A DNA stretch of 64,000 nucleotides from Deltaproteobacteria bacterium (GTDB lineage: Bacteria > UBA10199 > JACPAL01 > JAHFST01), in contig JAHFST010000002.1 of assembly GCA_023265625.1 (NCBI GenBank), positions 124,001 through 188,000 on the forward strand, in the 5' to 3' direction. The notes under the pieces were generated by a model. It saw only the letters and a program-made list of their open reading frames with translations, had not been told where the DNA came from and ran no database searches. Each line of letters starts with the position of its first letter. Positions within the stretch are counted from its first letter, which is position 1. Positions 56,828-60,136 of the stretch are shown here, one piece after another. The translations under genes and the position numbers were made by a program.

Positions 56828-57599
56828 CCGATTTTTGTTTTTGGGAATAATGATGTTTGGGTGCGTCGTGGGTTGTGGCCACAAAGCGGAAGTAGGCGCT
56901 CCCGTGGCGGCCCCGACAATTCCTGCCCAGGCGGAAAAAGTGGTGGCCCCTGAGACCGTTTCAGAGCTACCCTCCACCCCCGTCAAAGTGCCGCAAAAAA
57001 AGGGCAAAAAATATGCTGTGGAAGGAACTTCGACGCGCGCCATTCAAGAGCTGGATGATCGTATCGATGCCTATATTATCAATCCGAAGAATGACGAAGA
57101 ACGGGCCTTTAACGCGAATTTAAAGCGGAGCATCATCCATGGTATTTTTGACGTGTCTGAATTGTGCCGCCAGGCCTTGGATAAACATTGGGCCACCCTC
57201 GCGGAGGCCGATCAAAAATCATTTGTCGATTTAATGACGCGTCTCTTGGAGAAGAAGGGAATATTCTCGAAAGAGCAGGATAACCACAAGGGCACCGATG
57301 GGAAATATTTTGTGACCTACGAAGGGGATAAATTCCTGAGCCCCGAGAAGACGCTTTCTTTGGTCAATACGCATGTCCACATTCCCAAAGAAAACCTGAG
57401 CATTGAATTGAATTACAAGATGAGACGATCTGCGGAATGGAAGATCTTCGATGTGATTGTGGATCAGGCCAGCCTGCTCGACAATTATAAATATCAGTTC
57501 GACAAGATCATTTCCAAGGATGGCTACCCCGAACTCTACAAGCGGATGTCGGCCAAATTGCAAGACATGGAAGCCAAAGAGAAAAAGAAGACGGAGTGA
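56817..57599 (+). CDS. MlaC/Ttg2D-like lipoprotein
   Basis: A 260-residue protein with the lipobox VVGC (C20), a Pro/Ala linker, then an MlaC-type domain (SIIHGIFDVSELCRQALDKHW, TRLLEKKGIF, DYKMRR-like strands, YPELYKRMSAKLQ). MlaC proteins carry phospholipids across the periplasm; the usual form is soluble, so a lipid anchor is unusual. AGGAGG lies 7 bases before the ATG at 56817 inside the TolC-like gene. Confidence 0.75.
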   Translation: MRNSRFLFLGIMMFGCVVGCGHKAEVGAPVAAPTIPAQAEKVVAPETVSELPSTPVKVPQKKGKKYAVEGTSTRAIQELDDRIDAYIINPKNDEERAFNANLKRSIIHGIFDVSELCRQALDKHWATLAEADQKSFVDLMTRLLEKKGIFSKEQDNHKGTDGKYFVTYEGDKFLSPEKTLSLVNTHVHIPKENLSIELNYKMRRSAEWKIFDVIVDQASLLDNYKYQFDKIISKDGYPELYKRMSAKLQDMEAKEKKKTE

Positions 57600-59113
57600 G
57601 TTATCAGCGTTGTATCGTCATCTTAGCCGACGGGGCCAGGCCTGATGTCATGCAGGAGCTGATGCGTCAAGGAGAACTGCCGGCCATCAGCGCACATTTA
57701 GGTAAGTCTTATCCCGCGGTCACGGTGTTTCCTTCCACCACGGGCCCGGCCTACATGCCTTTTTTGACCGGGAGTTACCCGGGCACCTGCAATGTGCCTG
57801 GGATTCGCTGGTTTGATAAAAGCACCTTTGCCCAGCGCCGTTTTTCACACCGAAAATTTCGCAGTTATGTCGGTGGGGCCACCCTCTACATCAATGGCGA
57901 TATGGCTCCAGTGCCGTCACTGTTTAAGCTCCTGCCTCGCTCCAGCAATATTTTTAGTTCGATCAATCGCGGGGTGAGTTGGCATGGCAACAAGACGACG
58001 TTTTCCCGGATTTGGTATTGGTACTATGCCCATCTCACCGATCACTGGGGGGTGCCGGATCGGGCCGCCACGCGAAAAATGCTGCAGGCGGCCGAAGAGG
58101 ATTTCCAGTTTATGTTTGTGGTGTATCCCGGCATCGATGAATTTTCGCATCTCCACAGTCCCTTCGGAGAGCGCACCCGGGAGGCCTATCGGGAGATTGA
58201 TCGGGCGGTCGGCAGCGTGGTGGCCCAGCTGAAACAGTCCAGGCGATGGGATGAGACCTGTATTATGATCGTCAGTGATCATGGCTTGTCCGAGACCCGG
58301 AAACATTTTGGCCTCAATCGTTTTTTGGAAGAGGAGATGGGGTTGCCGACCCTTTATTATCCCAAGACGGTTTTCAAAAAAGATTTCGTGGCGGCGAGCA
58401 TGGTTTCCGGCAATGGCATGTCGCATCTCTACTTGAGAAATTCTCATGGTGCGGTAGCGCGACGAAGTGATTGGGCGGGACGGACTTTTTGGGAGACGAT
58501 ATTGGCCAGGCCCGATCGTTTGGTGGAGCGTTTGTTGGAGCATGAAGAGGTGGATTTGATTGCCGGACAAAGATCCGATGGGGCGGTAGTGGTCCGTAGT
58601 CGACGCGGGGAGGCGGTGATTTCGGTTGCTGTAGGGGCGGCCCTGCGTGGCCGCCCCAATCCCGGTGGCCCCGGCCTTGATGGCCACGACGGGGGCAGAC
58701 ACATAGGTCTGCCCCTACAATACCAAATTAAATACCAAAGTATTGGTTCAGACCCCTTCGGCTATCCCCAATTCCCCACGATGATGACCGAACGCGAGAC
58801 CTTGGATCGCACGATCACAACGGATTACCCGGACGCCCTGGTCCAACTCCTGCAGATCTTTCGTTCCGGCCGCACCGGGGACCTGGTCCTGTCGGCCAAA
58901 AAGGGTTTTGATCTCCGGCAGCGCCATGAGGTCCACGAGCACAAGTCCTCCCACGGCTCTCTCCACCGGGAGCATATGATGATTCCCTTGGTGACCAATG
59001 TCACCCTCCCGAATCGAGCGGTTCGATCGGTCGATGTGTTTCCGACGATTCTATCGTTGTTGGGGCAACCGATCCCTGGCGGGATTGATGGGGTTTCGTT
59101 AAATCCCCCTTGA
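57596..59113 (+). CDS. Type I phosphodiesterase / alkaline phosphatase superfamily protein
   Basis: A 505-residue enzyme starting at GTG in a 4-base overlap with the MlaC-like gene. Metal and nucleophile motifs are present: ILADGARPD, FPSTTGPAYMPFLTG (catalytic Thr), GIDEFSHLH and VSDHGLS. It probably cleaves a phosphodiester or phosphate group in envelope metabolism. About 30 residues (345-374, Gly/Pro/Arg-rich) are encoded by an inserted palindromic element, and the last residues and stop come from another repeat. No signal peptide is seen. Confidence 0.85.
   Translation: MSYQRCIVILADGARPDVMQELMRQGELPAISAHLGKSYPAVTVFPSTTGPAYMPFLTGSYPGTCNVPGIRWFDKSTFAQRRFSHRKFRSYVGGATLYINGDMAPVPSLFKLLPRSSNIFSSINRGVSWHGNKTTFSRIWYWYYAHLTDHWGVPDRAATRKMLQAAEEDFQFMFVVYPGIDEFSHLHSPFGERTREAYREIDRAVGSVVAQLKQSRRWDETCIMIVSDHGLSETRKHFGLNRFLEEEMGLPTLYYPKTVFKKDFVAASMVSGNGMSHLYLRNSHGAVARRSDWAGRTFWETILARPDRLVERLLEHEEVDLIAGQRSDGAVVVRSRRGEAVISVAVGAALRGRPNPGGPGLDGHDGGRHIGLPLQYQIKYQSIGSDPFGYPQFPTMMTERETLDRTITTDYPDALVQLLQIFRSGRTGDLVLSAKKGFDLRQRHEVHEHKSSHGSLHREHMMIPLVTNVTLPNRAVRSVDVFPTILSLLGQPIPGGIDGVSLNPP
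58631..58718. repeat. 88-bp palindromic element inserted in frame in the phosphodiesterase gene
   Basis: The element begins GTAGGGGC and ends with the complement GCCCCTAC, with further internal stems (GGGCGGCC/GGCCGCCC). It stays open in the gene's frame and encodes a Gly/Pro/Arg-rich loop between RGEAVISV and IKYQSIGSDPFGYP. Similar elements are typical of intergenic repeats in related genomes. Confidence 0.8.
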
Positions 59114-59201
59114 TCCCCCTTTTTCAAAGGGGGAGGTGGTGAAGACTCCTTTTGTAATGGTATTTCCCCCCTTTGAAAAAGGGGGGTAGGGGGGATTTAA
59201 G
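59107..59201. repeat. Palindromic repeat supplying the phosphodiesterase stop codon
   Basis: The element begins AAATCCCCCTTGATCCCCCT and ends with an approximate inverted copy (about 59164-59201: CCCTTTGAAAAAGGGGGG, then GGGGGGATTT). The phosphodiesterase stop TGA lies in the left arm. The structure could also act as a transcription terminator before the etf operon. Confidence 0.75.
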
Positions 59202-60084: not shown

Positions 60085-60119
60085 CGTAGGGGCGCCCCGT
60101 CATCCGACAGGGCGCCCTT
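60085..60119. repeat. GC-rich hairpin between etfB and etfA
   Basis: GGGGCGCCCC and GGGCGCCC around a short spacer form a strong stem in the 55-base gap. It may attenuate transcription between etfB and etfA or be a small repeat related to the nearby palindromic elements. Confidence 0.55.
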
Positions 60120-60136
60120 CGCTTAAGGAGAAAAAC

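Follow-up and report, generated by a model that had tools for sequence, protein, structure and literature searches.

How a palindromic repeat can lie within the coding sequence of a conserved enzyme while the reading frame stays open is the question raised by a type I phosphodiesterase gene in a 64,000-nucleotide stretch of a Deltaproteobacteria genome (referred to here as the window). An earlier reading made without database searches (the sequence-only reading) had placed an 88-bp palindromic element inside this gene at positions 58631 to 58718, and its coordinates, the ends of the element, and the open frame all proved correct on re-reading. The explanation that we favor, to which we give a probability of about 0.88, is that a GTAG-tagged REP dimer was inserted in frame and is translated as a loop of an enzyme that is likely active, and that a phase rule governs such elements genome-wide. 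On this view, the two REP hairpins form a head-to-head dimer, a mobile repeat of the non-autonomous, REPIN/BIME-like kind, which entered the gene where a surface β-hairpin turns; translation presumably yields a loop of ~30 residues that is flexible and without structure, and the enzyme most likely remains active. In two of the three phases such an element would usually be open and would survive in genes where a loop or linker accepts 15 to 33 residues, while in the third phase its TAG would end the gene and it would survive only at gene ends, the remaining elements being intergenic.

The element consists of two GTAG-tagged hairpins in opposite orientations (a REP dimer), reading GTAGGGGCGGCCCTGCGTGGCCGCCCC, followed by a 34-base spacer and then GGGGCAGACACATAGGTCTGCCCCTAC. 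Both arms have a perfect 9-bp stem, a 6-nt loop, and an unpaired GTA 5' of the stem, with the G of GTAG pairable. The folding of each arm was more stable than that of 200 of 200 dinucleotide shuffles (z, -4.6 and -5.4), and the whole element gave a z of -3.5 on either strand. The element has the features that define GTAG-tagged REPs in the consulted part of PMC3733652, namely, GTAG at one end, a stem of 5 to 13 bp, and a loop of 2 to 20 bp. The stem and loop type of arm 1 is present in 5 arms of the 60 dimers collected from this genome, and a copy at G000:C32:62159-62204 shares 91% identity over 46 bp with arm 2 and part of the spacer. Because the element length of 88 bp is 1 mod 3, a clean insertion would shift the frame, and two extra bases or a small indel would therefore have been involved. 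The 12-bp sequence that adjoins the element as a tandem duplication is present as a single copy after the element of the orthologue from a related genome, G004, by direct reading.

Table 1. Positions of the features in the window, and other genes that carry REP dimers
Feature	Position	Strand	Description
Type I phosphodiesterase/nucleotide pyrophosphatase gene	57596..59113	+	505 aa; Pfam PF01663, E value 1.8e-32
REP arm 1	58631..58657	+	GTAG tag and hairpin GGGGCGGCC-CTGCGT-GGCCGCCCC, 9-bp stem, 6-nt loop
Spacer between REPs	58658..58691	.	Weaker inner hairpin; related to spacers of other dimers
REP arm 2	58692..58718	- (58718-58692)	GTAG tag and hairpin GGGGCAGAC-CTATGT-GTCTGCCCC
Imperfect 12-bp tandem duplication	58719..58742	+	AATACCAAATTA AATACCAAAGTA; adjoins element 3'; direct reading
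Second, different palindromic repeat	59099..59200		TTAAATCCCCCTTGATCCCCC ... GGGGGATTTAA, 36-nt arms; starts at end of phosphodiesterase gene
Phosphodiesterase stop codon	59111..59113		TGA, supplied by second palindromic repeat
Degenerate GTAGGGGC repeat	60086..60125		Between two genes, presumably for electron-transfer flavoprotein subunits
RAYT-like genes with dimer	L070:1400-1485; L024:1437-1534; L069; L254 (G001)	- (dimer in L069)	Hairpin stems all different
metG, mutY, pabB/trpE-like gene			Two dimers each
mutL (linker), murD, icd, phosphodiesterase, Rsm22-like methyltransferase, agmatine-deiminase-like gene			One dimer each
M15 peptidase, gpmI, mqnA-like, mqnC-like, truA, class-III aminotransferase			One dimer each
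Two Y1 transposase genes			One dimer each; Pfam match only 3' of insert

A scan of the window's own genome (2.93 Mb in 37 contigs) revealed a repeat family with head-to-head dimers. The 27-nt unit GTAGGGGC-N14-GCCCC has 37 exact copies, compared with 0 for the reversed pattern, and a looser pattern of the unit gave 139 matches versus 13 reversed (palindromic units being counted on both strands). The dimer pattern GTAGGGGC-N46..76-GCCCCTAC occurs 53 times and its reversed counterpart not at all, which, with the folding beyond all shuffles, upholds the claim of a palindromic repeat. The 60 distinct dimers analyzed come from own-genome loci retrieved by similarity or pattern, and the genome may hold others. 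Their 120 arms fall into several stem types, with equal arms in only 3 of the 60 dimers and at least 4 arms without a perfect stem. Among 14 distinct 27-nt arms, 99.2% of the stem cells pair and 16 cells are altered on both sides; the pairing, the double changes, and the covariation score were matched by 0 of 500 shuffles, and slid registers all scored far lower. The stem is maintained by compensatory changes, and both this and the head-to-head dimers agree with the description of GTAG-tagged REPs in the available part of PMC3733652.

In the phosphodiesterase, the segment between conserved residues G338 and D386 has 49 amino acids, whereas 100 of 122 orthologue rows (two collections combined, so that some genomes occur twice) have 19 to 22. 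The net gain is 27 to 30 residues, in keeping with the ~30 added residues that had been claimed, and the sequence-only reading's proposed test, the same loop with unrelated DNA in all orthologues as the sign of a native origin, gave instead orthologues in which the loop is missing. The rows span several phyla, including Dadabacteria, Latescibacterota, Zixibacteria, and Gemmatimonadetes. In 15 rows, all from Poribacteria (L208-L235), a 40-aa segment of unrelated sequence lies at the same place, a native-looking extension of ~20 residues at the same turn. One further row, L134 (G024), is a wrong ORF that was excluded from the class alignment and appears in the segment survey with 29 aa. Five relatives within the order were compared: nothing is inserted there in four, and one has a different REP dimer.

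Insertions of at least 9 residues over 470 core columns were found in 5 of 41 aligned class sequences (40 genomes), namely, those of the window, G004, G007, G018, and G039. The G004 phosphodiesterase carries a GTAG dimer whose stems are of a different type, almost at the site of the window's element. Palindromes of the CCCTCTCCCC type are found a few residues downstream of the window's site in G007 and G018; that of G007 seemingly has a second repeat nested inside, and its insert sequence recurs elsewhere in both genomes. Three relatives carry palindromes other than the window's in the same loop. G039 represents a different family of the class; its orthologue (L053) contains, at a different loop, the in-frame repeat CATTGCGAGC..GCGAAGCAATC (insert, VIASGAKQSPESI), which looks like a CGTC-type REP, the type being assigned by eye.

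A single old insertion, inherited by both the window genome and G004 and followed by swapping or divergence of the hairpins, is rather unlikely. The right junctions of the two are near-identical in nucleotides (CTAC-AATA[CT]CAAATT), as a shared insertion would predict, but the left junctions are 6 nt apart and the hairpin stems are of different REP types. A tree that omits 10 of 42 rows, these being distant, partial, second-copy, or wrong-ORF, groups G004 with G002 (support, 100/99); both G002 and G001 are without the insert, so that an ancestral gain would need losses. As the sister of G004, G002, has no insert, the window genome and G004 more probably acquired theirs independently than through a single gain in an ancestor. 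The nearest relatives compared belong to other families of the order, at 56 to 64% protein identity, and the exact insertion event is therefore not reconstructable.

The reading frame of the phosphodiesterase is open throughout, and the element encodes residues 346 to 375. The insert peptide, VGAALRGRPNPGGPGLDGHDGGRHIGLPLQ, corresponds to 30 codons, including 2 nt outside the 88 bp, and the insertion phase reads GTA-GGG-GC.. (Val-Gly-Ala...) and not G-TAG. The flanking motifs had been described as intact, and residues D12, T49, D181, H185, D228, H229, and H453 indeed lie in columns that are invariant across the aligned orthologues; we take these seven to be the nucleophile and metal ligands of the alkaline-phosphatase superfamily. 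An AlphaFold2 model built on a 47-sequence alignment has a mean pLDDT of 90.1, and the predicted fold resembles NPP and phosphonoacetate hydrolase. Residues 348 to 372 have a pLDDT below 50 and are located between strands 339-345 and 377-383, which, from the order of elements in the model, may form one β-hairpin with the insert as its disordered tip. A pseudogene or an inactive enzyme, with the element situated in decaying DNA, is very unlikely; a stop codon taken from a second repeat would suit such decay, but the 505-aa frame is intact, the invariant motif residues are retained, the predicted fold is confident, and matches to the phosphodiesterase were found in 44 of 46 class genomes searched.

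The phosphodiesterase insertion is not isolated but one of many in this genome, and the search for further copies that had been proposed found them both in genes and between genes. Twenty of the 60 dimers lie in frame inside 17 protein-coding genes with Pfam support (Table 1; the gene names are our reading of the Pfam matches), and Pfam domains surround the insert or flank it on both sides in all but the two Y1 genes. Not counted as genic were L144 (upstream of a gcvT domain), L115:735 and L018 (no Pfam match), and L029:304, a read-through near the end of gpmI. Both MetG inserts are absent from the MetG homologues of 7 related genomes by tblastn. Alignments with solved structures place the inserts of MetG, GpmI, and the deiminase at turns, where a few native residues are missing; the Icd insert coincides in part with a segment that is also occupied by residues in the enzyme of B. 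subtilis. Element lengths of 1 mod 3 are found in 15 of 20 in-gene dimers versus 19 of 40 others (Fisher P = 0.056, with the same split in the final genic list), an excess that is only suggestive.

Two of the repair genes have in-frame REP dimers, mutL (L154) with one and mutY (L073 and L141) with two, and mutL also has a REP-like peptide, VGAPLAAPLQ. Ahead of the C-terminal tRNA-binding domain of MetG, the linker contains inserts that are repeat-like or long and of low complexity in L259 (G004; for example, SPLAPRGEG) and L264 (G002).

Frames GTA-GGG.. and nGT-AGG.. can pass the element, while frame nnG-TAG stops. At 42 dimers the frame that enters the element is 100 codons or longer; the TAG of the element terminates it in 23, it continues through the element in 18, and in 1 it ends inside. 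The 23 TAG stops of longest incoming frames, which are also the total for all 60 dimers, exceed the one third expected among the 42 (binomial P = 0.003); one of them, L011:1502, is on the opposite strand to a read-through gene and is likely spurious. Among the 11 TAG-ended proteins that were scanned, a Pfam match was obtained for 10, most reaching near the profile end, which places the TAG stop at or near the natural gene end. No gene cut in two by the element was found among 10 left/right ORF pairs scanned on both sides; one left ORF of these had no match, and the LeuC/LeuD-like pair (L109) was taken as two genes. LeuC and LeuD are ordinarily encoded by separate genes. Most simply, the elements would insert at many places, and the copies that break genes would then be removed. 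It was also considered that the elements evolved to be coding, but this is unsupported, as 114 of 160 strand-frames of dimers outside genes are open (71%), much as in shuffled sequence (73%).

Even less probable than an inactive enzyme is that the inserts are absent from the final proteins, through ribosome bypassing or RNA removal, so that any site is tolerated. This would accommodate inserts in genes such as metG and murD, which are usually essential in bacteria. Skipping would, however, make frame and position irrelevant, and it is thus opposed by the 20 of 20 in-gene elements that are in frame and stop-free, in contrast to the partly open strand-frames elsewhere (partly a selection effect), by the location of inserts at turns and linkers, and by the lack of any frame-broken gene among the 10 scanned pairs. 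That the enzyme has this loop natively as a lineage-specific feature, with a palindrome by chance, is hardly credible and was rejected on the repeat copies and the orthologue survey: the Poribacteria segment, whose peptide has no sign of a repeat, indicates that a long loop is possible natively, but the element DNA belongs to a genome-wide family, and the relatives in the order have either no insert or another REP dimer.

In PMC3733652, GTAG-tagged REPs are described as associated with tyrosine transposase (RAYT) genes. The genome of the window has 10 Y1_Tnp matches. Two of the matching genes (on C36 and C32), a kindred gene just under the Pfam cutoff (C26), and one gene of G001 carry a GTAG dimer in frame, located between the NH[IF]HGI (HUH) motif and the next helix. 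The best NCBIfam match of these four RAYT-like proteins is the REP-associated tyrosine transposase, at 45 to 61 bits, below the curated cutoff of 80. GTAGGGGC was absent within the loci of the other three own Y1 proteins scanned against NCBIfam. The base 5' of GTAG is T at 102 of 120 termini, with CT at 46 of 120, and studied TnpAREP enzymes cleave at CT beside the REP, according to the accessible part of PMC8266576. REP units and Y1 genes are poorly correlated between relatives, as G002 has 17 and 16 unit matches on the two strands and no Y1 match, and G007 has Y1 genes and no units. Mobilization by a RAYT-type mechanism is likely and would proceed as single-stranded DNA through a RAYT-like Y1 (HUH) transposase. 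More doubtful is the idea that the RAYT-like genes of this lineage keep their own in-frame dimer as a copy source, from which dimers are scattered as coding inserts of 15 to 33 residues, the phase alone deciding between a loop and a gene end. If true, the genome would steadily gain disordered loops of this size at the turns of conserved enzymes.

These insertions represent a known but little-studied route by which mobile DNA reshapes proteins. Conserved enzymes that lend themselves to assay (methionyl-tRNA synthetase, isocitrate dehydrogenase, phosphoglycerate mutase, MutY, and MurD) here bear a good number of in-frame mobile-element insertions, with which the acceptance of new loops by proteins and a role of REPs beyond gene boundaries become testable. 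Annotators of such genomes are also warned that a REP-encoded peptide in a predicted protein is probably genuine. A nonexhaustive literature search on palindromic elements of UBA10199 found nothing relevant.

REPIN or BIME elements, reportedly described together with RAYT by Bertels and Rainey in 2011, are similar in having two inverted REPs as a unit, and RAYT-like genes are likewise present in this genome. Unlike in those elements, each arm here folds alone, the arms are mostly unequal, and the RAYT-like genes are only candidate cognates. The sequence-only reading had compared the insertion to those of Rickettsia, and the Rickettsia palindromic elements (RPE) are indeed palindromes that lie in frame in numerous unrelated genes, according to the part of PMC3733652 available to us, but the comparison was too narrow, since GTAG REP dimers are known from several lineages. 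RPE-4 and RPE-6 are given there as CGTC repeats without transposase association, whereas the element described here, compared with RPE by description, is of the GTAG type and from another lineage.

The closest likeness is to the GTAG-tagged REPs of Di Nocera et al. (2013; PMC3733652), a family known from several bacterial lineages, for which the consulted sections of that paper already describe intragenic dimers. Shared features are the tag, stem and loop sizes within range, head-to-head heterodimers, many copies, TAG often serving as a stop, intragenic dimers encoding 20 to 30 aa, two inserts in one gene, and different REPs near the same site in related species (recB of two Xanthomonas species). 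DNA-repair genes are numerous there among the hosts of intragenic REPs, a remark that the mutL and mutY insertions fit. Those GTAG REPs are mostly intergenic, whereas one third of the dimers here (20 of 60) are in frame in genes, and the lineage differs, with Deltaproteobacteria MAGs as its nearest named relatives. RAYT-like genes with an in-frame REP dimer are present here and receive no mention in the portion of PMC3733652 consulted. Unusual in this lineage are the share of dimers inside genes, the repeatedly hit loop, and the in-frame REP dimers of RAYT-like transposase genes.
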